Part shown: positions 3 to 13,306 of the stretch, one piece after another
Position numbering within the stretch: the first letter of the stretch is position 1
Layout: the number at the start of each line of letters is the position of its first letter
NCBI GenBank assembly: GCA_026981635.1
Contig: JALSIF010000219.1
Coordinates: forward strand, 1 to 13,793
Direction of reading: 5' to 3'
DNA: 13,793 nt
Origin: JALSIF01 sp026981635 [NCBI: bacterium]
Lineage (GTDB): Bacteria > 4484-113 > JALSIF01
Made by a program: the position numbers and the translations under genes
The notes under the pieces: model-generated
Told to the model about the DNA's origin: nothing
Seen by the model: only the letters and a program-made list of their open reading frames with translations
Databases searched by the model: none

Positions 3-971
3 GGCTTCATCGGCTCCAATCTGGTGGAAGCTCTGCTCAGCCGGGGGGAGCGAGTCCGGGTAATTGACGACTTCTCCACCGGCCGGCTGGAGAACCTGGC
101 TCCTTTCCTTGACCGCATAGAACTGATTGAGGCCAGCATCACCGATGAAGACACCGTTGAGCGTGCCCTTCAGGGAGTGGACTATGTGCTTCACCAGGCC
201 GCCCTGCCCAGCGTGGCGCGCTCGCTTGAGGAGCCTGCCCGCACCAACCTGGTCAACGTCCAGGGGACGGTCATCCTGCTTGAGGCGGCAATAAGGGCAA
301 GAAACGAGGGGCTTGCCCCCATCAAGCGCTTTGTAATAGCTGGCTCATCCAGTGTTTACGGCAACACAACCCGACTGCCCAAGCGGGAAAGCGATACTCC
401 CTCTCCCCTCTCCCCCTATGCAGTCAGCAAGCTGGCCCAGGAGCATTATGGCCAGATTTTCCACCGGGTCTACGACTTGCCGGTGATAATACTTCGCTAC
501 TTCAACATTTACGGTCCCCGCCAGGATCCCCTGAGCCAATATGCAGCGGTTGTACCTGCCTTCATCACCGCCTTGCTGCGGGGCGATCGGCCGGTTATCT
601 ACGGGGACGGAGAACAAACCAGGGATTTCACCTATGTGGCCGATTGTGTTCAGGCTAACCTCAGGGCCTGCACCGCCCCCAGTGAAGCCTGTGGAAAGAT
701 CTTCAATGTCAGCTTCGGAAAGCGGATCTCCATCAACGAGCTGCTCTCCACCATCTGTGAGCTGATGGGCAAGGAGCCGGTTGAACCCCTCTATCAACCC
801 GCTCGCCCCGGCGATGTGCGTGATTCGCTTGCCGATACCAGCCTGGCCAGGCAGTATCTCGGCTACCATCCCAACTTCCCGCTGGAAAAGGGCCTCATGG
901 AGACCATACGCTGGTTCCAGCAGGCTCAGCCTACCGCCAAAGTGCTTGAGCAGGGAATGGAGCAGGCCTAG
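3..971 (+). CDS. NAD-dependent nucleotide-sugar epimerase, WbpP-like (5' partial)
   Basis: Extended short-chain dehydrogenase/reductase that probably interconverts UDP-hexoses or UDP-N-acetylhexosamines at C4 for surface polysaccharide synthesis in the cytoplasm. The frame is open to the window edge. The first visible residues, GFIGSNLVE, are the second half of the GxxGxxG NAD-binding loop, so only about ten N-terminal residues are missing; the GTG at 24 is internal. HQAALPSVARS, the GSSSVYG serine region (codons around 342-362) and the catalytic YxxxK pair (Tyr at 417-419, Lys at 429-431) are all present, as are RYFNIYGPRQDP and GDGEQTRDF. The HQAALxSVxRS and RQDP segments resemble the WbpP/UDP-GlcNAc 4-epimerase branch more than plain GalE. 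Exact substrate is inferred. Its TAG stop overlaps the stop of the convergent gene at 968. Confidence 0.9.
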   Translation, partial: GFIGSNLVEALLSRGERVRVIDDFSTGRLENLAPFLDRIELIEASITDEDTVERALQGVDYVLHQAALPSVARSLEEPARTNLVNVQGTVILLEAAIRARNEGLAPIKRFVIAGSSSVYGNTTRLPKRESDTPSPLSPYAVSKLAQEHYGQIFHRVYDLPVIILRYFNIYGPRQDPLSQYAAVVPAFITALLRGDRPVIYGDGEQTRDFTYVADCVQANLRACTAPSEACGKIFNVSFGKRISINELLSTICELMGKEPVEPLYQPARPGDVRDSLADTSLARQYLGYHPNFPLEKGLMETIRWFQQAQPTAKVLEQGMEQA

Positions 972-1879
972 CCCAGCTTCACCGTGAGGTAGGCCTTGAG
1001 CTTGTCGGCGATATCGGTGTAGGTTTCATACTCCAGAAGGTCGTGCTTCATGTAGTCCACCAGGGGAAGCTCGTACCCCTCCCCCCGCCTGCGGACAAGC
1101 ACTACCCGCTTGCCCTGGCCATAGGCGACCCCGATAAGCATGAGCATAGTTGAGTTCCACTCATCAATCAGAAACACCGCCGCCTCGCTCTCCTGGATGT
1201 TCTCACACAACCGGCAAGCCTGGTCAAGGTCGTTTAGGGGCTCCTCCATCCGGTAGGGCACTAGATTTATCTCCCGGATGGCGGGCACAATCACCCGCTC
1301 CCAAAGTTCGTCGTTGCGCGCACTCTGGGCAAGGTGCACCGTCACCTTCTTCTCGGTGAAGATGGGGTTTTTCCTGCACTGTCCCTCAGGAAACCTCCAG
1401 CAGCGGATAGTGTCGGTAGCGTCGCGGCGGTTTCTGAGTAGCCTAAGGTAGTCGCGCTTTAACTCCTCCAGCGCCTGTTCAACCTGCTCCTGGGTGACCG
1501 GCAGCTCCACTTCGGCCCCCCCCAGATGGCGCTCCATCTCCACCCCCGGGTTCTGAACCTCGGTGTAGTAGGGGCACTGCTCGCAGGTGGAAAAGTCGTA
1601 GAGCCTGATGCCCAGTTCCCGGCAGCTCATGGAGACGACCACCTTCCCCTCCCCCCGATAGGGCTTAAGCTCCGTTCCCAGGGAAAGGAAGCGGCAACGG
1701 GGGACGGACAGGATCTGGGGGACCTCGCAGTTGTAGCAGGTTAGCGGGTCAACCTCGTTTACGTGGGGATCGGTGGAGATGACGCAGCGGGTGGTTCCAC
1801 GTTCCACCCGCCGGAAACGGCAGGCGGGGATGTCCAGGAAGTTCTCAAAGGTTGGACCTCGCCTTCGCTTAGGGCTCAA
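968..1879 (-). CDS. Cysteine-rich protein with C-terminal nucleoside deoxyribosyltransferase/TIR-like domain
   Basis: Not recognised as a named family. The 303-aa protein has 12 cysteines: Cys20, 32, 48, 51, 62, 86, 99, 102, 160, 168, 222 and 225, including CxxC pairs at 48/51, 99/102 and 222/225, which suggests zinc or Fe-S binding. A helical linker spans about 128-152. Residues 178-303 read like the NDT/TIR-like Rossmann fold: VTVHLAQSARND, a helix, VIVPAIREINLVPYR, then AAVFLIDEWN, IGVAYGQGKRVVLV and a terminal helix. In catalytic relatives a Glu precedes the Leu-Gly of the NVFYELG-like motif; here that position is Leu248, so enzymatic activity is doubtful and ligand sensing is an alternative. 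The TTG start at 1877-1879 is supported by a GGAGG 6 nt upstream. It is divergent from the small putative zinc-ribbon gene at 1968. Fold assignment is by pattern only. Confidence 0.8.
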   Translation of the reverse strand: MSPKRRRGPTFENFLDIPACRFRRVERGTTRCVISTDPHVNEVDPLTCYNCEVPQILSVPRCRFLSLGTELKPYRGEGKVVVSMSCRELGIRLYDFSTCEQCPYYTEVQNPGVEMERHLGGAEVELPVTQEQVEQALEELKRDYLRLLRNRRDATDTIRCWRFPEGQCRKNPIFTEKKVTVHLAQSARNDELWERVIVPAIREINLVPYRMEEPLNDLDQACRLCENIQESEAAVFLIDEWNSTMLMLIGVAYGQGKRVVLVRRRGEGYELPLVDYMKHDLLEYETYTDIADKLKAYLTVKLG

Positions 1880-3431: not shown

Positions 3432-3875
3432 TCAGACTGGCGGTGCCTGGCGCTTGACCACCTTCAGGCGGGTGAGGTTTCGCTCCCGCTGAAGCTTGAG
3501 CTCCTCCACCTCCCATGGCTCAAAGGCGGTGTAGGGATCGGCCGAAAGCTGGTTGAGCTTTTCCTCCGCCTCGGCCAGGTTGCGGGTGGCGCGATCCACA
3601 TCAATCTCGTCGCGGTGCTCAGCCATGTCGGCAAGGATGCGCACCCCCTCTCGGTGAACCTCTAGGAACCCACCGTGGGTGGCGAAGAACTCCACCTTCC
3701 CATCGGGAAGGCGGACAATTAGCTCGCCAATGCGCAGGGCAGCGATCATGGGCTGGTGGTGGGCCCAGACCCCAAAGTAGCCGTCCAGCCCGGGGGCGAT
3801 GATGGATACCACCTCACCCTCCCAGATGGGTCCATCGGGGGTGTAGAGCTCAAGCCGGTAGGTCCTAGCAGCCAT
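3432..3875 (-). CDS. atpC: F-type ATP synthase epsilon subunit
   Basis: Epsilon subunit of F1, part of the central stalk, which couples rotation to catalysis and can inhibit ATP hydrolysis. It has 147 aa, slightly longer than the usual 130-140. The N-terminal beta-sandwich (about 5-88) carries LELYTPDGPIWEGEV, APGLDGYFGVWAHHQPMIAAL and ATHGGFLEV. The C-terminal helical hairpin begins at EIDVDRATRNLAEAEEKL. The IDxxRA pattern there is the I/LDxxRA motif linked to ATP binding by epsilon in Bacillus PS3. The ATG at 3873-3875 follows a GGAGGTGG at 3887-3894 embedded in the end of atpD; the atpD stop is 6 nt upstream, suggesting translational coupling. It is the last gene of the ATP synthase operon. 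Confidence 0.97.
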   Translation of the reverse strand: MAARTYRLELYTPDGPIWEGEVVSIIAPGLDGYFGVWAHHQPMIAALRIGELIVRLPDGKVEFFATHGGFLEVHREGVRILADMAEHRDEIDVDRATRNLAEAEEKLNQLSADPYTAFEPWEVEELKLQRERNLTRLKVVKRQAPPV

Positions 3876-3881
3876 CGCCCG

Positions 3882-5333
<1,452 letters not shown>

Positions 5334-5359
5334 CTACTCCTTGATGATTGCGGTTTGGA

Positions 5360-6268
5360 TCAGGCACCTCCGCCCATCTTGCGCAGCGCTTCTGCGCCGC
5401 CCACGATGTCCAGTATCTCGTTGGTGATGCCCTCCTGGCGGGCCTTGTTGAACCAGAGGGTGAGGGTCTTGATCATGTCCTCTGCCGCCTGGGTGGCGTT
5501 GTCCATTGCCACCATCCTCGCCCCGTGCTCGCTGGTGTAGGTCTCCTGAATGGCCCTAAACAACACCGCCTCGTAGTAGCGGGGAAGCAGGGTGCCGATC
5601 ATCTCCGGCCCGGAGGGCTCAAACAGGACCTCGCCCTTTAGCCCTCCCCCATCTGCCTCGGCAAAGGGCCTGACCGATTCTTCGGTGATGGGGAGAAGCT
5701 GGCGCTGGGTGGGGATGTTTTTGACCACGTTGATGAAGTGGGCGTAGATCAGGTCAACCCGCTCGTAGCGGCCGCTGAAAAACAGCTCCCGGGCAAGGTC
5801 GGCGATGGGCTTTACCTCCCGGTAAGTAGCCTGCTTGGAGAACCATGGATAGTGGCGCACGATCTCAACCTTCCGGCGGCGGAAGAAGAGCCACCCCTTG
5901 CGACCCACCGTAATGAGGTCCACCTCCCTGCCCTGCTCCTTCTGCTGGTGAATGTAGGAGCGGGCCGCCCGGATCAGGTTGGCGTTGAAGGCCCCACACA
6001 GCCCCTTCTCTGCCGTAAGTAGGATAAGCAGGCTGCGACCGGTGGGCTCGGGAACGGTGGAGAGGGGGTGGGGATATTCGGAGAGGTGGGGAGCAAGGTC
6101 GGCCATCAGGCGGTTTAGGGTGTCAAAGTAGGGGGCGCTAAGCCTGGTCTGTCCCTCCGCCCGGGAGAGCTTGGCGGCCGAGACCATCTTCATGGCTCGG
6201 GTTATCTGGCGGGTGTTGTTGACCGACTTTATCCGCCGCTTGATGGCCCTTTCCTTTCCACCCGGCAT
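5360..6268 (-). CDS. atpG: F-type ATP synthase gamma subunit
   Basis: Gamma subunit, the rotating central shaft linking the c-ring to the alpha3beta3 head. It has 302 aa, slightly above the usual 285-295. The N-terminal helix KRRIKSVNNTRQITRAMKMVSAAKLSRA and the C-terminal helix with SEHGARMVAMDNAT and NEILDIVGGAEAL are the family signatures and form the coiled shaft. The Rossmann-like middle carries LLTAEKGLCGAFN. The ATG at 6266-6268 follows a GGAG about 7 nt upstream, inside the end of the preceding unrecognised gene, whose stop is only 3 nt before this start. That spacing implies translational coupling of atpG to the inserted ORF. Confidence 0.98.
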   Translation of the reverse strand: MPGGKERAIKRRIKSVNNTRQITRAMKMVSAAKLSRAEGQTRLSAPYFDTLNRLMADLAPHLSEYPHPLSTVPEPTGRSLLILLTAEKGLCGAFNANLIRAARSYIHQQKEQGREVDLITVGRKGWLFFRRRKVEIVRHYPWFSKQATYREVKPIADLARELFFSGRYERVDLIYAHFINVVKNIPTQRQLLPITEESVRPFAEADGGGLKGEVLFEPSGPEMIGTLLPRYYEAVLFRAIQETYTSEHGARMVAMDNATQAAEDMIKTLTLWFNKARQEGITNEILDIVGGAEALRKMGGGA

Positions 6269-6271
6269 GGC

Positions 6272-6709
6272 CTAACTCCCTTCTCCCTTGCCTTCGTCCT
6301 CTTCCTTCCCGCTTTCTTTCCCCTCTCCCACCTGATCACGAAGATGGGAGGCAAAACCGATCTCTACCCCCTCCTCGGCGGGTGCATAACCCTCCCGCTC
6401 GGGGAAGAAAACCACCGAGGTGATGAACTGCCACAGGATCAGCACATAGGCCTTGTAGCAGACCTTGCGCCGTTTCTCTGGCGGGATGTACTCCCCATCC
6501 TCAGTAAAGGCGGGGATGGAGCAGAAGTTGGGGTGCTCCACCCAGAGGCCAAGCTGGTCCACTCCCACAATACGGGCATAGAAGCTGGGCTCGTCTATGC
6601 CCTGCACACCAATGAGCTTCAAGGCATCGGGATTGACCCTAAGGAGCACCTTGGCCCCCTCAATCTCCTTGATGCTCATCTCTGTAGGGGTACCAGGCAA
6701 CGCTTCCAC
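6272..6709 (-). CDS. Unrecognised 145-aa protein encoded between atpA and atpG
   Basis: Not a canonical ATP synthase subunit and not a family I recognise. A compact core at about 16-106 carries EIEGAKVLLRVNPDALKL, SFYARIVGVDQLGLWVEHP and AYVLILWQFITSVVFFPE, an alternation suggesting a small beta-barrel, possibly Sm-like or PilZ-like; this is inference. There are two cysteines (63, 84) and no signal peptide or clear membrane helix. The last 24 residues are a low-complexity Gly/Glu/Lys tail (QVGEGKESGKEEDEGKGEGS), probably disordered. The GTG at 6707-6709 is 5 nt after the atpA stop, with GAGG 3 nt upstream; ATG at 6677-6679 (MSIKEIEG) is a plausible alternative. Its stop is 3 nt from the atpG start. 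The coding sequence is intact, and codon use looks like the neighbours, so it is an operon member, not debris. Confidence 0.85.
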   Translation of the reverse strand: MEALPGTPTEMSIKEIEGAKVLLRVNPDALKLIGVQGIDEPSFYARIVGVDQLGLWVEHPNFCSIPAFTEDGEYIPPEKRRKVCYKAYVLILWQFITSVVFFPEREGYAPAEEGVEIGFASHLRDQVGEGKESGKEEDEGKGEGS

Positions 6710-6714
6710 CTGCC

Positions 6715-8295
6715 TCAGGCCGCCTCTCCGCCGGCCGCCGGCACCTCCTCAAGCTCCCCCTGGGCCTTGAGCTCCTCGCGGAACTTGGCGGTGAACTCCT
6801 CGCAGGCCTTCTTGAGCTTCTGCTCAATCTCCTCGGGGAGCTGGCCGGTCTGGCGGATGTGGATGAGGATCTCCTCGTAATTCTCCTTCACGTAGGCAAT
6901 GAGTCCCTTCTCGTAGTCGCGCACCTTGGCCACCGGAAACTCATCCAGGTAGCCCTGGGTGCCGGCGTAGATGGCTACCACCTGCTCCTCGTTGGGGACC
7001 GGCTGATACTGGCCCTGCTTGAGGAGCTCGGTCATCCGCTCACCGCGGGTGAGCTGACGCTGGGTGGCGGGGTCAAGCTCGGAGCCAAACTGGGCAAAGG
7101 CGGCCAGCTCACGATACTGGGCCAGGGCCAGGCGGAGCATGCCGGCCACCTTCTTCATCGCCTTGGTCTGGGCAGAACCACCCACCCGGCTCACCGAGAG
7201 ACCCACGTTGATGGCCGGTCGGATGCCCTGGTAGAAGAGGTCGGGCTCCAGGTAGATCTGGCCGTCGGTGATGGAGATCACGTTGGTGGGAATGTAGGCG
7301 GAGACGTCGCCCGCCTTGGTCTCAATGATGGGCAGGGCAGTAAGTGACCCGCCGCCGTGATCATCGTTCAGTTTGCAGGCCCGCTCAAGCAGGCGCGAGT
7401 GGAGGTAGAAGACGTCGCCCGGGTAGGCTTCACGGCCCGGCGGGCGGCGAAGCAGCAGGGAGAGGGTGCGGTAGGCATCGGCGTGCTTGGAGAGGTCGTC
7501 GTAGATCACCAGCACATCCTTGCCCTGCCAGAGGAACTCCTCCCCCATGGCGCAGCCGGCGTAGGGGGCGATGTACTGGAGGGGAACTGGGTCGGAGGCA
7601 GTAGCACTTACCACCGTGGTGTACTCCATGGCGCCGTGCTTCTCCAGCACATCCACCACCCGGGCCACGGTGGAGCGCTTCTGCCCGATGGCCACATAGA
7701 TACAGATCACCGGTCGGTCGGTGTTCTGGGTGGATTTCTGGTTGATGATGGTGTCAATGACGATGGCGGTTTTGCCGGTCTGGCGGTCGCCGATGATCAG
7801 CTCACGCTGGCCACGGCCGATGGGGATCATGGAATCTATCGCCTTGATGCCAGTCATCAGGGGGATCTTTACCGGCTCCCTCAGCACCACACCGGGGGCT
7901 TTCACCTCCAGCGGGCGGGTCTTCTTGAGGGGGATGGGGCCCTTGCCGTCGAGCGGCTGACCGAGGGGATTTACCACCCGGCCGATCACCGCCTCCCCCA
8001 CCGGCACGCTCATCACCCGGCCGGTGCGCTTGACTGTGTCCCCCTCCTTCACCTTCTCCCCGGAGCCCATCAGCACCACCCCGACGTTCTCCTCCTCCAG
8101 GTTGAAGGCGATGCCGTAGACCTCGCCGGGGAACTCCAATAGCTCCATCGCCATGCAGTTCTCAAGCCCGAAGACCCGGGCGATACCGTCGCCCACCGAG
8201 AGCACAATCCCCCGGTCCTCCAGCTTGAGCTCCCGCTCGTAGGACTCAAGCTGCTGCTTGATTACACTGGCAATCTCTTCCGGTTTGATGCTCAT
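6715..8295 (-). CDS. atpA: F-type ATP synthase alpha subunit
   Basis: Regulatory nucleotide-binding subunit of F1, which binds nucleotide non-catalytically and supplies the arginine finger to beta. It has 526 aa. Motifs seen are [16 protein letters not shown] (delta-contact N-terminus), [23 protein letters not shown] (33-55), Walker A GDRQTGKT (169-176), the Walker B-like [12 protein letters not shown] (261-272), [16 protein letters not shown] (291-306) and [10 protein letters not shown] (367-376) with the arginine finger Arg370. The C-terminus ends in an Ala/Gly-rich stretch. The start ATG at 8293-8295 has a strong GGGAGGAG (8301-8308) 5 nt upstream. It lies 21 bp after atpH. Unusually, an unrelated ORF, not atpG, follows it. 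Confidence 0.99.
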
Positions 8296-8316
8296 AACCG
8301 CTCCTCCCTGTTGAGG

Positions 8317-8880
8317 CTAGGCCATCAGGCGAGCCTCCGGTGCATTGAGCAATTCATAGAGCTCCTTGAGGGCGGTGCTCAGGCTTCCGTCTATCACCCG
8401 ATCGCGGCCCAGGTAGACCACCAGGCCACCCAGCAGGTCGGGATTCACCCTGAAGGTGGTGCGGAAGTTGTAGTCACTGAACTTCTTAATCACCGCAAGA
8501 AGCTCCTGCTTCTCCTCCTCGGTGAGCTCCACCGCACTCTCCACCACCACATCCTCCACCCCGCGATAGCGGTCGGTGAGGATGTCGTAGTAGTCCAGCA
8601 CCGCCTGAATGTCGGCCGCCCTCCCCCTGCGCAGCATGAGTCTGATCAGCTCAAGCAGGGGTCTTGCGGGAGGCTCCTCAAATAGCTCCTGGATAAACTG
8701 GAGCTTGGCCTCCAGGCTGATCTCGGGGTGCTGGATGAAGCGGCGCACCTCGGGATCGGAAAGCTTTTTCTCCAGGTACATGGCCTGCTGGTCAATCTCC
8801 TCCACCAGCCCCTTCTCTTTAGCCAGCTCAAACAGGGCGGTGGCGTAGCGCTTGGCCACTGGCAGATTTACTCCCTTCAT
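8317..8880 (-). CDS. atpH: F-type ATP synthase delta subunit
   Basis: Delta subunit (OSCP homologue), part of the peripheral stalk joining the b subunits to the top of F1. It has 187 aa, typical for the family. The N-terminal helical domain starts VAKRYATALFELAKEKG and contains LIRLMLRRGRAADI. The C-terminal region has VESAVELTEEEKQEL and PDLLGGLVVYLGRDRVIDGSLSTAL, matching the family's conserved GG and VIDGS positions. The ATG at 8878-8880 is 11 nt after the atpF stop with only a weak G-rich ribosome-binding site, so coupling to atpF is likely. The order b, delta, alpha is the classic F-ATPase arrangement. Confidence 0.97.
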   Translation of the reverse strand: MKGVNLPVAKRYATALFELAKEKGLVEEIDQQAMYLEKKLSDPEVRRFIQHPEISLEAKLQFIQELFEEPPARPLLELIRLMLRRGRAADIQAVLDYYDILTDRYRGVEDVVVESAVELTEEEKQELLAVIKKFSDYNFRTTFRVNPDLLGGLVVYLGRDRVIDGSLSTALKELYELLNAPEARLMA

Positions 8881-8891
8881 GGCCGCCCCAC

Positions 8892-9383
8892 TCAGAGCTC
8901 CCTTAGCTCGCCGATGAAGCGCCTGACCAGCTGGTGGTGCTTCTCTTCATCCAGACCCTCGCGGAGGACCTTGCGGGTGAGGTCAAAGCTAAGGTCAATG
9001 GCCAGGCGGCGGATCTCCTCCTTGGCCGCCTCCCGCTCCCGCTCAATCTCCTCGCGGGCTCGCTGGAGCATACGCTCCTTCTGCAGCTCCGCCTCCTCAC
9101 GAAGCTTCTCGGCCAGCTCCTCCCCTTTGCGCATCGCCTCCTGGAAGCGCTTCTGGGCCTCGTCCTCAATCTTTCTCAGCCTCTCCTCCAGCTCCTTCTG
9201 GCGCTGGTCAAGCTCCGCCTGTCGCCGCTCGGCCTCCTTGAAACCCTGCTCAATCAAGGCCCGGCGCTGGTCAATTACCTCCACCACCGGCTTCCAGGCC
9301 AGCCGGTAGAGGACATACCAGAAGACCAGCGTGCCGATGAGGGCGATGGGGATGAGCTTTACCTGTTCAATGAAGAATTCCAC
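8892..9383 (-). CDS. atpF: F-type ATP synthase b subunit
   Basis: b subunit of Fo, the peripheral stalk that holds the stator. It has 163 aa: one N-terminal membrane helix at about 9-29 (LIPIALIGTLVFWYVLYRL), then WKPVVEVIDQRR and a long, strongly charged coiled-coil region (about 40-140) rich in Glu, Arg, Lys and Gln, ending in a helix that would contact delta. Only one b-type gene is present, so the stalk is probably a homodimer. The GTG start at 9381-9383 is fixed by AGGAGG (9390-9395) at 6 nt, which overlaps the stop codon of atpE; this gives coupled translation. Confidence 0.97.
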   Translation of the reverse strand: MEFFIEQVKLIPIALIGTLVFWYVLYRLAWKPVVEVIDQRRALIEQGFKEAERRQAELDQRQKELEERLRKIEDEAQKRFQEAMRKGEELAEKLREEAELQKERMLQRAREEIEREREAAKEEIRRLAIDLSFDLTRKVLREGLDEEKHHQLVRRFIGELREL

Positions 9384-9393
9384 CCGCGCCCTC

Positions 9394-9609
9394 CTACTTT
9401 ACGAAGGCGATCAGGAGCACGTAGAGGGTGAGCGCCTCAATGAAGCCCGCACCGATCAGCATGGCGGTCTGGATGCGGCCGATGGCCTCCGGCTGACGGC
9501 CCATCGCCTGCATGGCACCCATGCCCAGCAGGCCGATGCCGATGCCGCTGCCGATCACCGACAGACCAACTCCAAGTGCGTATCCGGCTCCCTCTGCTGG
9601 AATGCCCAT
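9394..9609 (-). CDS. atpE: F-type ATP synthase c subunit (proteolipid)
   Basis: Membrane-ring subunit carrying the translocated ion. It has 71 aa with two membrane helices: the first about 12-35, including GSGIGIGLLGMGA, the second about 47-69 (MLIGAGFIEALTLYVLLIAF). The polar loop RQPE (38-41) is typical. The ion-binding carboxylate is Glu58. In Na+-type rings, such as that of Ilyobacter tartaricus, a Gln in helix 1 and a Ser after the Glu complete the site; here these positions are Ile25 and Ala59, so H+ coupling is inferred. The frame runs open upstream to 9735, overlapping atpB, but ATG 9607-9609 gives the normal c-subunit start and has AAGGAGG (9621-9627) 11 nt upstream. Confidence 0.97.
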   Translation of the reverse strand: MGIPAEGAGYALGVGLSVIGSGIGIGLLGMGAMQAMGRQPEAIGRIQTAMLIGAGFIEALTLYVLLIAFVK

Positions 9610-9653
9610 TTTGGTTCTTTCCTCCTTCTTGGAATTTGTGGATCTCTCTTTGG

Positions 9654-9669
9654 CCCCGCTTGGGCGGGG
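9654..9669 (-). promoter_or_regulatory. Intercistronic hairpin between atpB and atpE
   Basis: In the 85-bp gap before atpE, CCCCGC and GCGGGG form a perfect 6-bp G/C stem with a 4-nt loop. No T-tract follows on the minus strand, so termination is unlikely. In E. coli the atpB-atpE gap enhances c translation, as c is needed in many more copies than a. A comparable stabilising or processing role here is inference. Confidence 0.45.
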
Positions 9670-9694
9670 ATAGCTTACAAGGATCGGTTCTAGC

Positions 9695-10582
9695 CTAGGC
9701 GGCGTGGCCCGCCTCCTCGTGGGCGTGCTCCTCATGGGGAAGGGATAGGGCGATATAGAGGGTGGAGAGGAGAGAAAAGATTACCGCCTGGATCACCGAG
9801 AGCAGTGCGGCCAGGAAGATGAAGAAGAAGTAGAGGAAGACGCCCATGAACTTGGGAAGTAGGCCGGTGCCCACCGTACCTACCACTAGGCCGCCAAACA
9901 CGGCCAGGAGCACATCCTTGGAGAAGATGTTGCCGAACAGTCGCAGGGAGAGGCTCACCGGTCGCATGAGCTTCTCCATCAAGTGGATGATGGCAAACAG
10001 CGCCCCCAGAAGGACGGTCATCACCAAGGGAAGGGAGGGGTCGTAGCCCACCAGGTGGAGGAAATACTTCTTGGGGCCGTTTCTCACCAGCTCGGTTATC
10101 TCGGTGGCGAAAAATACCACCAGCGCCATGCCGAAGTTGATCCCCCACACCGAGGAGGGAGGCTTCATCAGTACCACCAGCTCAAAGAAATTCATGAAGA
10201 GGATGACCACAAACAGCCCTCCCACCAGGCCGATGTAGCGGTCAACCTCCTTGGCACCCAGGATCTCCCCGAAGAATCTCCTCAGCCCGTCCACCACCCA
10301 CTCGGTGAAGATGGCAAACCGGCTCCCCGGCTTTACCCTGACCAGGCGGGAGAAAACCACCGCCCAGCCGAGGACGATGACGAGGGCTAGGGTGAAATAG
10401 AAAACAGTAGAGATATCCTTCACCGTGTAGGCGAAGAGGTCGGAGCCAAAAAGCTTGAACACTACCGTCTCCGGTGACGCATCAGGTAGTGCTCGTAGGA
10501 AAAGCAGGGTAACAAGATCGGGGAGCTCGGGTACGTGTACCCCGGCTGCCTCACCACCTTCACCGCCAACCAGGATAAACAT
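9695..10582 (-). CDS. atpB: F-type ATP synthase a subunit
   Basis: Stator subunit of Fo that provides the two proton half-channels next to the c-ring. It has 295 aa from the chosen start, with five to six hydrophobic helices. The key segment is PVSLSLRLFGNIFSKDVLLAVFGG (208-231): essential Arg214 and Asn218 are present, and Asp223 sits where E. coli has Glu219, with Lys222 in place of Gly218. The last helix has IQAVIFSLLSTLYIALS with Gln265. The C-terminal tail, HEEHAHEEAGHAA, is His/Glu-rich and could bind metal or protons. The frame is open upstream to 10702, but ATG 10580-10582 is preferred: it lies 8 nt after the previous stop, follows AGGTGG at 4 nt, and avoids a 40-aa non-membrane extension. 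Confidence 0.95.
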   Translation of the reverse strand: MFILVGGEGGEAAGVHVPELPDLVTLLFLRALPDASPETVVFKLFGSDLFAYTVKDISTVFYFTLALVIVLGWAVVFSRLVRVKPGSRFAIFTEWVVDGLRRFFGEILGAKEVDRYIGLVGGLFVVILFMNFFELVVLMKPPSSVWGINFGMALVVFFATEITELVRNGPKKYFLHLVGYDPSLPLVMTVLLGALFAIIHLMEKLMRPVSLSLRLFGNIFSKDVLLAVFGGLVVGTVGTGLLPKFMGVFLYFFFIFLAALLSVIQAVIFSLLSTLYIALSLPHEEHAHEEAGHAA

Positions 10583-10590
10583 CCTTCCAC

Positions 10591-11046
10591 CTACCTGCCT
10601 AACTCTGAGTGCCTCTTTCGCCCGCTTCCCCAAAGCTGGGACACACCCAGCCCCAGCAGGGTCGCGGGTACCGCTCCCACGCCCACAACAAGCCCCATCC
10701 ACTCGCCTCTAAGCCACCAGAAGATGGGGATAAGGCTAAGGAGCGCCGAGAGTTTAGCAACGAGAACTAGAAGTGTAAACCAGCCCGGCGGGGCGGGCCG
10801 ATCACCCCCCCCATGGAGGGGACGAAACAGGCTCCGAATGGTTGCCCCAAGCAGCAGCCAGTTTATAAGCGACCATCCCCCCATCACCAGCAAGGAGCGG
10901 TAGGTAAGGCCGGGAACTAGGGGAACAAGTGCCAGCCAAGCCAGGGTCCAGAAGAGGATGCCCAGGGCGACCCTGCTTTCCCGGTAGGGGGAATCGGGGT
11001 CGGCCGAAAACACCTCCCGCACCCAGCTTGGATCAGGAGCTGCCAT
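10591..11046 (-). CDS. atpI: AtpI-like ATP synthase accessory membrane protein
   Basis: A 151-aa membrane protein with four predicted helices at about 25-45, 50-70, 89-111 and 115-138 and a basic C-terminus (GSGRKRHSELGR). Position (just before atpB), length and topology fit the ATP synthase subunit I family, whose members assist c-ring assembly and, with AtpZ, have been linked to Mg2+/Ca2+ transport. The helix-2 segment GWSLINWLLLGATIRSLF resembles the conserved part of that family. The ATG at 11044-11046 lies inside the preceding gene, with a 14-bp overlap, so translation is probably coupled. The identification rests on context and topology more than on residues. Confidence 0.7.
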   Translation of the reverse strand: MAAPDPSWVREVFSADPDSPYRESRVALGILFWTLAWLALVPLVPGLTYRSLLVMGGWSLINWLLLGATIRSLFRPLHGGGDRPAPPGWFTLLVLVAKLSALLSLIPIFWWLRGEWMGLVVGVGAVPATLLGLGVSQLWGSGRKRHSELGR

Positions 11047-11278
11047 CGGTGAGTTTGGCCACCTGGCCGATGAGATTTGCCACCTCTATCAGACTTGCCA
11101 CCAGCCCCAGCAGGGTGACCAGGGGCATCAGGAAGGTGGTGCCCAGCTTGCCGTCCAAGAATCTGCCCAGAAAGAAGCCCACCAGGGGACCCGCCACCAT
11201 CACCATGGGGATGGTGCTGGCGATGGCATAGATCCTTAGCTGGCGGCTTAGCCCCTTGGGGTCGTCAAAGAAGCCCAC
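11033..11278 (-). CDS. atpZ: AtpZ-type F1Fo-ATPase accessory protein
   Basis: An 81-aa protein with two membrane helices, about 17-41 and 48-70. The hairpin VGFFLGRFLDGKLGTTFLMPLVTLLGLVASLIEV carries the GxxxGxxLD pattern and the position at the operon head typical of the small ATPase gene 1/AtpZ family. Members act with AtpI in ATP synthase assembly or divalent-cation supply. The GTG start at 11276-11278 is the only sensible one in frame, but an AGGGGG ribosome-binding candidate is 14 nt away, farther than normal. It is the first gene of the atp cluster, 18 bp after the protease stop and overlapping the next gene. A nearby ATG at 11285 is out of frame. Confidence 0.85.
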   Translation of the reverse strand: MGFFDDPKGLSRQLRIYAIASTIPMVMVAGPLVGFFLGRFLDGKLGTTFLMPLVTLLGLVASLIEVANLIGQVAKLTDGSS

Positions 11279-11296: not shown

Positions 11297-13306
11297 CTAG
11301 GGCATAAAACGGACAATCCAGGGCAGGTCCCGCTCGTCCACCACGCCGTCTCCCGACGGGTCCAGCCAGGGGCGGAAGAGACCGCTGGTGTTGTCCACCC
11401 CCAGGGGGAGCAGGTCGTTCAGGGTCTCCACATCCTTCCCGTCCACCACCCCATCCTCGTTGAGGTCACCCCTAAGGCTCATCACGTCAATGAGCACCAC
11501 ATCCTCCGAGGAGCCGAACTGGGGGCTGTCCACCTGGGCGCGGATGCGGTAGCGGCCGTTTCTGAGCCCGCCGAGCTGGAGGGCAAAGATGGCCGGCACC
11601 CCGTCCTCCACCCCATAGGGCTCGGCTGAGACCTCCCCCTCCCGCTCAAAGAAGAGGCGCACCTGGCTGGTGTCTCCCGGCCCCTTCACTTCAACCCGGA
11701 TGCGAAAGTCGTTTACTCCCATGGTGTTGTAGAAGGAGAGGTTGGGCGGGCTTACGATCTGGGCCCGGGGCAGGGGTCGGCCGATGTCCAGCGAAAAGCT
11801 CACCCCGTTGTTCTGGGCCAAACGCTGAATCTGGCTTATGTCAATGGAGTAGCTCCCGTCATAGGAGACCAGTGGCGGATTGGTGTTGCGGTTAAGCTCG
11901 GTCACCCCGGCCGTCCCCGGAGCGGGGTCGCCACCGTCACCCAGGTTGCCGGTCCCCTCAAAGCCCATCAGGTCAAAGTTGCCATCGGCCTGGATGAGGC
12001 GCAGGAAGGGGTGGAGGTCGGGATGGGGGTCCTCAAAGTCGTTGACGTTATACATGTTTTGCGGCCGGTTGGGGGAGAGGAGCAGCTCCACCATGCGCTC
12101 ATCCACCTGCCAGATGAGCAGGCCGGGAACCGGGTCGGTGCCGGTGGAGGGCTGATCGCCGAGATAGACAAAGGAGTTTCGCCTCGCCTCAAGCAGGAAG
12201 TACTCCTTCCCCTCGCTGCCGGGGACATCAATCCGGATCACCCTGCCCCGCCCCTCCGCCTGGTCGGCATCCAGCAGGAAGACGTTGAAGTCGTCAAAGT
12301 CCTGCAGGGTGGCCTGGTCCCAGCGAAGCAGTATCCGGCTTAGGGCAGAGGGGATGACGGCAGGGTCGGTGAAGGGGCCGAAGCCCATGATGTCCCAGTA
12401 GCCCACCCCGAATGACTCATCGCCGTCGTCGCCCGGATTGCCGCCCAGTTCGGCAAAGCGGGACAGGGGCCCATAGTCGTAGTAGTCGGGCAAGCCCATG
12501 AGATGGCCCACCTCGTGCTCAAAGAAGTGGAGCCCGTTGTCAATGTGGGACTGGTGGATGAAGATGGCCCTCCTTACCACCTTTCCGTCGTAGGTGGTCC
12601 CCAGGTCCATGAGCTGGCGGGTGAAGGGGACAAAGTCCTCAATGTCGGTGGGCAGGATAAAGATTATCCCGTCAACGTCGCCGTTCTGGTCGCTGTCAAA
12701 CTGGGCAAAGTCCACCTCCTGATCGGCAAGCTCCAGCCAGCCCCTAACATCGTCGTCGGTGATGCCGGTGAAGGGGTCGCCTCCCCCGTAGGTGTGACCG
12801 AGCTGATAGATCTCACCATCCTCGGCAGGATAGATGGAGCCGGTGAGGTCCAGCGAGCCGATGGTCTCGTCGTCCAGCCGGCGGGGAGTGGGGTCAAAGG
12901 TGGCCGGGTCGTAGTAGCTTGCCCGCCGGTAGTACTCCCTAAGGGACTCCTCCCCGTCCTCCGGGTCAACCGAGAAGAGGCGCTGGCTGATCTGCTGGTT
13001 GGTGTAGGCCAGGCCGTCAAAGTCGGTCAGGTAGCCCACCTTTAGCACCAGCAGGCGGATGGCCCCCCGGGTGGGCATGGTGTCATCAAAGGAGGGCTGC
13101 TCCGCCCCAAGCTTCCCCCCAAAGTAGAGGTCAAGCACGGTGGGCCCCTGGTAGCGGTCAAGCATCAGGGGAGGGGGCGGGGAGTTGCCAGTATGGCTGG
13201 GGAGTTCCCCCTCCGGCCGGCCCTGCCTCCCGCAGGAGAGGGAAAGGGCGAGCGCCAGGAAAATCACCAGGGAAAGCACACCTGAAGCTCTGAGGCTCAT
13301 CCTCAT
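11297..13306 (-). CDS. Exported M6-type (immune inhibitor A-like) metalloprotease with dockerin-like C-terminus
   Basis: A 669-aa secreted protease. The N-terminus has a basic start, a hydrophobic core (LSLVIFLALALSLS) and Cys25, giving a lipoprotein-like cleavage site, although Ser at -3 is unusual. A Pro-rich linker follows (44-47). From about 83, GAIRLLVLKVGYLTDF, SLREYYRRASYYDP and a calcium-type DSDQNGDVD (204-212) match the M6 plan. The active site is HEVGHLMGLPD (264-274): zinc His264 and His268, catalytic Glu265 and the third ligand Asp274. GYWDIMGFG (302-310) supplies the Met-turn region. Residues 612-669 hold two dockerin-type calcium loops, DLNEDGVVD and DPSGDGVVD. Two in-frame ATGs (13306, 13300) lie at the start, with AGAGGG about 5 nt before the first. 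The substrate is unknown; extracellular protein degradation is the family role. Confidence 0.92.
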   Translation of the reverse strand: MRMSLRASGVLSLVIFLALALSLSCGRQGRPEGELPSHTGNSPPPPLMLDRYQGPTVLDLYFGGKLGAEQPSFDDTMPTRGAIRLLVLKVGYLTDFDGLAYTNQQISQRLFSVDPEDGEESLREYYRRASYYDPATFDPTPRRLDDETIGSLDLTGSIYPAEDGEIYQLGHTYGGGDPFTGITDDDVRGWLELADQEVDFAQFDSDQNGDVDGIIFILPTDIEDFVPFTRQLMDLGTTYDGKVVRRAIFIHQSHIDNGLHFFEHEVGHLMGLPDYYDYGPLSRFAELGGNPGDDGDESFGVGYWDIMGFGPFTDPAVIPSALSRILLRWDQATLQDFDDFNVFLLDADQAEGRGRVIRIDVPGSEGKEYFLLEARRNSFVYLGDQPSTGTDPVPGLLIWQVDERMVELLLSPNRPQNMYNVNDFEDPHPDLHPFLRLIQADGNFDLMGFEGTGNLGDGGDPAPGTAGVTELNRNTNPPLVSYDGSYSIDISQIQRLAQNNGVSFSLDIGRPLPRAQIVSPPNLSFYNTMGVNDFRIRVEVKGPGDTSQVRLFFEREGEVSAEPYGVEDGVPAIFALQLGGLRNGRYRIRAQVDSPQFGSSEDVVLIDVMSLRGDLNEDGVVDGKDVETLNDLLPLGVDNTSGLFRPWLDPSGDGVVDERDLPWIVRFMP

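Follow-up and report, generated by a model that had tools for sequence, protein, structure and literature searches.

The atp operon and its additional gene

The window analysed here, a continuous stretch of 13,793 nucleotides, carries an F-type ATP synthase operon on its minus strand (positions 3432–11278), with the genes in the order atpZ, an open reading frame in the position of atpI, atpB, atpE, atpF, atpH, atpA, X, atpG, atpD and atpC. The names of atpA (F1 alpha, 6715–8295, minus strand; TIGR00962, E 4.9e-252), atpG (F1 gamma, 5360–6268, minus strand; TIGR01146, E 7.8e-88), atpD and atpH come from profile matches and that of atpZ from PF09527, and atpB, atpE, atpF and atpC were named by reading; the frame in the atpI position has no Pfam match, and an Rfam scan of the window returned no matches. 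Upstream of atpZ lies a gene for what by eye is a secreted peptidase-like protein (11297–13306, minus strand), with a dockerin-like end just below the Pfam cut-off, and positions 968–1879 (minus strand) encode a cysteine-rich protein of 303 amino acids with no Pfam or NCBIfam match.

The interval between atpA and atpG, the genes upstream and downstream of it, holds an intact open reading frame that we refer to as X (6272–6709, minus strand). Read from a GTG start it encodes 145 amino acids and lies 5 nt after atpA and 3 nt before atpG; an earlier reading of the sequence alone (hereafter the sequence-only reading) had given these spacings, which are correct for that start codon. An alternative start, an ATG at position 6679, gives a protein of 135 amino acids and a 35-nt gap to atpA. 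By eye X has no long hydrophobic segment, and it is apparently a small soluble protein.

The order of the F1 genes is one of the best conserved in bacteria, and the sequence-only reading had described it as rarely interrupted and had proposed a survey of atpA–atpG gaps. In 104 atpA–atpG pairs (7 gamma matches without an atpA partner in range having been dropped), the gap between the two profile matches is 428–631 nt in all ten genomes of the class to which the window belongs; among the 94 other pairs the median is 31.5 nt, and three have a gap of at least 300 nt, occupied by other open frames. Gaps of this size are rare outside the class. Large atpA–atpG insertions in other genomes (G061, G056 and G137) were rejected as copies of X, as by eye they hold unrelated open frames: two small lipoprotein-like frames lie in this interval in the unrelated genome G061 (L085:557–1269, plus strand), and a transporter-like frame in the opposite direction in G137 (L087:937–2403, plus strand). 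Three genomes of family f2 have an extra signal-peptide-like frame between atpG and atpD (L025:9236–9985 and L023:9456–10331, plus strand, and part of the open frame L028:1764–2945, plus strand); the copy in G005 has no Pfam match, and the region in G008 (L029) holds Ns.

Homologues of X are present in all nine same-class relatives (E 1.2e-26 or better), so that with the window's own genome X is found in ten of ten, spread over four family codes (f1–f4) and always in the same atpA–atpG interval; the G007 contig is cut off within atpA on one side and within atpD on the other, with the C-terminal part of atpA present. For each of three pairs of X genes dN is far below dS (dN and dS of 0.16 and 1.22, 0.16 and 0.88, and 0.30 and 1.04, by NG86 only, with dS at 0.9–1.2 being near saturation), and X evolves under purifying selection; the conserved appearance noted by the sequence-only reading is genuine. 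GC-rich DNA gives rise to many spurious open reading frames, including one of 178 amino acids on the opposite strand here, but the occurrence of X in ten genomes, the low dN relative to dS and the homologues in other phyla make it exceedingly improbable that X is a chance open frame or an assembly artefact, and we reject a chance frame on the conservation; X is a genuine gene. The sequence-only reading had held that absence from the locus in close relatives would point to chance insertion; instead, the slot is occupied in every class genome. As the same slot is filled in all class genomes examined, X most simply reached it before these genomes diverged. In a tree a branch with weak support (57/59; 60% of bootstrap trees) has all the atp-linked copies to one side of it, and we do not claim a single origin for them.

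At the junction of X and atpG the minus strand reads gaagggagtTAGgccATG, with a Shine-Dalgarno-like AAGGGAG for atpG (6276–6282, minus strand) within the last codons of X, where the sequence-only reading had placed the atpG ribosome-binding site. Measured from the first base that follows the X stop codon, the atpG start lies between -8 and +11 nt in all ten class genomes: at -8 in five (G001, G005 and G009 by script, G007 and G008 by eye), at +2 in G003, +3 in G006, +9 in G004 and +11 in G002, and by eye at +3 in the window. Overlapping gene pairs are usually coupled, as were 13 of the 14 tested by Huber et al. (PMC6728339), whose study also describes coupling in a gene pair 10 nt apart. We infer that translation of X and atpG is coupled; of the earlier proposal that gamma synthesis is tied to X, the location of the Shine-Dalgarno sequence stands and the tie itself is plausible.

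Predicted fold and comparison with known families

The AlphaFold model of X alone, made with 16 aligned family members, has 10-residue block means of 81–96 over residues 1–90, which agrees with the compact, beta-rich core anticipated by the sequence-only reading; that reading had also proposed such a model, and the outcome is an Sm-like barrel with a low-confidence tail. The predicted barrel corresponds to positions 6401–6679 (minus strand; residues 1–93 of the ATG form) and consists of a helix followed by five strands in the Sm-type order, and the strand order in a model of the family member from UASB270 agrees with it. A Foldseek search of the PDB with the X model gave probabilities up to 0.99 and a best E of 0.035, with no hit at E ≤ 0.001; apart from two ribosomal entries, the best 50 of 359 matches are to Sm, LSm, Gemin or Hfq entries or to spliceosomal complexes, and the chain matched in the latter is presumably an Sm protein. 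By VIA the best match of the X model is the Y68T mutant of M. jannaschii Hfq (Z 7.3, 1.8 Å over 54 residues) and the UASB270 model matches Hfq with Z 7.0; both values are under 8, a level below which the tool cautions that a match can reflect no more than a common arrangement. The VIA matches listed for both models are Hfq, LSm, Gemin6/7 and spliceosomal entries, to which the X list adds one RimP and one decapping-factor entry; their similarity, together with Z values of 6.2 and 6.4 at rank 50 for the two models, favors a true Sm-like barrel. We thus predict, from moderate scores, that X and its family are small beta-barrels of the Sm type. Four residues, G27, D41, G44 and W46, are invariant in all 21 rows of the family alignment A4.

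The X protein of the window has no sequence match in Pfam, NCBIfam or the PDB, in keeping with the earlier view that it resembles no known subunit or family; no ATP-synthase family is among the Pfam and NCBIfam results, and by profile X does not qualify as a subunit. Searches with family alignments gave little more: among solved structures there was nothing for alignment A1 and two chance-level rows for A4; a SodC-type NCBIfam model matched one of ten A1 members weakly (E 0.007), and CPSF100_C, DUF7678 and other Pfam models matched one of 21 A4 members each (E at least 0.056). With only such weak single-member matches, the identification of X as a known subunit or family was set aside. Hfq is absent from the Pfam results for the 10 A1 members (E ≤ 10) and the 21 A4 members (E ≤ 1), and LSM is likewise unmatched. 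The YKHA-type motif, which is the Sm2-type motif of Hfq, is found in none of the 16 rows of alignment A2; the segment likely to be its equivalent in the X family is [ILV]xW..[IV], present in all 16. X is therefore like the Hfq, LSm and Sm proteins in its predicted topology but unlike them in having no profile match, no YKHA-type motif, and 18 residues separating the third strand of its model from the fourth; judged by profile and motif, it is not Hfq.

Other comparisons are possible. RimP is a ribosome maturation factor whose C-terminal domain is an Sm-like barrel. One RimP chain is among the structure matches of X (5gl6, Z 6.3), and PF17384, the RimP C-terminal domain, matches one of 21 A4 members at a noise-level E of 0.31; X differs from RimP in being without a second domain. 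AtpZ and AtpI are, like X, products of non-subunit genes grouped with the ATP synthase genes, and atpZ is also in the window; they are membrane proteins encoded at the start of the atp operon, whereas X is placed within the F1 block and by eye has no long hydrophobic segment. The atp operon of Rhodobacter (Rhodopseudomonas) blasticus has an extra gene between those for gamma and beta, which is similar to X as an unexplained gene in the F1 block, but in another slot. X as phage or plasmid cargo was also considered and rejected, as a viral contig collection contained no relative, plasmids gave no match with X, and phages gave no match with the nuo-linked paralogue described below; the family phrog_5785 matched two of 21 A4 members (best E 2e-4), and among eight members scanned singly only that of G143 matched.

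Relatives in other operons and phyla

A search of the named genomes with the single X sequence found no match, and an alignment search found 15 loci, seven of them class members and eight from SZUA-336, KSB3, UASB270 and Marinimicrobia. The flanks of these eight (up to about 8 kb on either side, some shorter) contain no atp genes; homologues away from atp genes, the other sign of chance insertion given by the sequence-only reading, were found in other phyla within the flanks examined. In a survey of 385 genomes X is present in 17, ten of the class and seven others, and it occurs in all four genomes of a small phylum that includes KSB3 and in five of eight genomes of a second phylum. In the KSB3 phylum X follows mnmG in two genomes (mnmG by profile in one) and precedes an ABC transporter group in G106 and G372; G106 has it some 25 kb beyond atpG on one contig, and in G103 the distance to atpG is about 220 kb. 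The UASB270 protein is found again in G385, which shares its phylum with the KSB3 genome. In the second phylum the gene is preceded by cooS in G143 and G391, by cooS together with a cupin gene in G388, and by a ferredoxin–cupin pair in G390 (L060:5776–8100, plus strand, and L110, L111 and L112); the contig of the fifth genome is too short to show its neighbors. The Marinimicrobia relatives are at mixed sites.

A diverged paralogue of X is present between nuoD and nuoE in three class genomes, G005, G007 and G008 (L061:7399–7719, minus strand, and also L063 and L064, where it lies directly before nuoE), and its homology to X is supported by hhalign (94.6%, E 7e-8). Six of the nine class genomes with a nuoD match have no such open frame at the site, and the window's own genome (85% complete) has no nuoD match. 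Apart from the three genomes with this paralogue, there is one X match per genome among the hits of the genome survey.

The relatives next to mnmG, ABC transporter genes, cooS and nuo genes, and at mixed sites, indicate that X is not an F1 subunit by origin, and we conclude that it belongs to a family of predicted Sm fold that has become fixed in the atp operon of one lineage. The fold itself is known; the X family, its fixed atp slot and its nuo and cooS links were not found in profile libraries or in the literature at the level of titles and abstracts, in which no report of the X gene was found.

The same distribution raises the question of whether X has any special tie to ATP synthase. It could be a general housekeeping protein of Sm fold that is placed in the operon for steady co-expression, a reading that agrees with the varied contexts of its homologues (in the KSB3 phylum, the second phylum, Marinimicrobia and SZUA-336) and with their usual number of one per genome. 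The retention of the atp slot close to atpG throughout the class speaks against it, however, as do the nuo paralogue and the adjacency to cooS in another phylum, which repeat a theme of energy operons, and we regard a purely housekeeping role as unlikely.

Possible roles of X

The sequence-only reading had put forward an assembly factor, an inhibitor or regulator of F1, or an RNA-binding protein as candidate roles. Our best explanation, offered tentatively, with real doubt and with only a small lead over its alternatives, is that X is a co-translated accessory protein, for assembly or regulation, of the neighboring energy complex. Ribosomes leaving X would re-initiate on atpG, so that X and gamma would be made in step, and the barrel would be a protein-binding accessory in the biogenesis or regulation of the adjacent complex, which would be F1 for X in this operon and complex I for the nuo-linked paralogue; X would not act as an Hfq-like RNA chaperone. 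This accessory role is supported by the recurrence of energy operons (atp, nuo and cooS) and by the combination of the ten-of-ten slot, the rarity of large gaps and the closeness of the atpG start. It is weakened by the many homologues outside the class that are not in energy operons, by the nuo paralogue being missing from most class genomes with nuoD, by the moderate structural scores from VIA and Foldseek, by a weak charge argument (below), and because ATP synthase, complex I and CO dehydrogenase have no protein partner in common. Since relatives occur away from atp genes, the ancestral role of X must have been more general than F1.

One alternative is that X is an Sm-like RNA-binding regulator, which would bind atp mRNA (or else a small RNA) and adjust how the F1 cistrons are translated, in a lineage without detected Hfq. 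The Sm fold is known mainly for RNA work, the predicted Sm-like fold of X would make RNA binding possible, and X overlaps or adjoins the initiation site of atpG. No class genome has a match to PF17209 (Hfq) at E ≤ 0.001 (0/10), and none of the 17 X-bearing genomes has one over the cut-off, with a sub-threshold match in G106; but a lack of Hfq is common, as in 324 of the 385 genomes of the survey no match reaches the cut-off. X as an Hfq replacement was set aside and no correlation is claimed, as just 61 of 385 genomes have Hfq over the cut-off and ten of the 17 X genomes are of one class. The missing YKHA-type motif and the lack of Hfq and LSM matches also argue against a regulator of this kind.

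Charge bears on the same question. The cores, cut at the last conserved motif, are acidic in 18 of 18 proteins (pI 4.4–5.5), and five further relatives have whole-protein pI values of 4.8–5.8; over the first 95 residues, pI ranges from 4.5 to 6.7 among the 16 A2 rows, so that part of the acidity of the core lies after the barrel. The three nuo paralogues have a pI of 5.3–6.3 as whole proteins and of 9.2–9.8 over their first 80 residues. The view that acidity of the barrel disproves RNA binding was abandoned on these values, and because the charge argument weakened on recheck we raised the RNA-binding alternative slightly and lowered the accessory explanation. On sequence composition, charge counts weakly against RNA binding, and the missing Hfq motif and mostly acidic make-up lean, again weakly, to a protein-binding accessory.

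The Gly/Glu/Lys tail (6275–6352, minus strand; residues 110–135 of the ATG form) is of low AlphaFold confidence, as expected of the disordered tail described by the sequence-only reading, but it is not a conserved feature. Among the ten atp-linked members it exceeds 10 amino acids in eight and is 4–5 in the other two (range 4–71), and it is 2–5 amino acids long in eight relatives elsewhere; as it is not conserved, the tail was rejected as a functional domain. Lysine-rich tails, which count in favor of an RNA-binding role, are found in four of the ten atp-linked members, but the tail is short in several. The DNA of the tail in the window is 76% purine, compared with 51% in the core, and carries the atpG Shine-Dalgarno sequence; the Gly/Glu/Lys make-up may thus owe as much to purine-rich codons as to function. 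Taking the motif, charge and tail together with the fold, an RNA-binding regulator is a possible but somewhat unlikely role for X.

A broader form of the accessory explanation, which we consider distinctly unlikely, is that this unnamed Sm-fold family would serve as a common accessory of energy complexes, inserted in the atp operon of one lineage, copied to nuo within that lineage and attached to the CO dehydrogenase genes in another, where it would match synthesis or assembly of the adjacent complex to the state of the cell without classical Hfq-type RNA chaperoning. Cell state might be sensed, for example, through nucleotides, by analogy with several Hfq entries among the listed structure matches of X that carry AMP, UMP, CTP or ADPNP.

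The X family spans several uncultured phyla, and we found no database entry for it. A class-wide and probably co-translated protein at this position would be either a new factor in ATP synthase biogenesis or control, or a new way for proteins of the Sm fold to act on energy operons.
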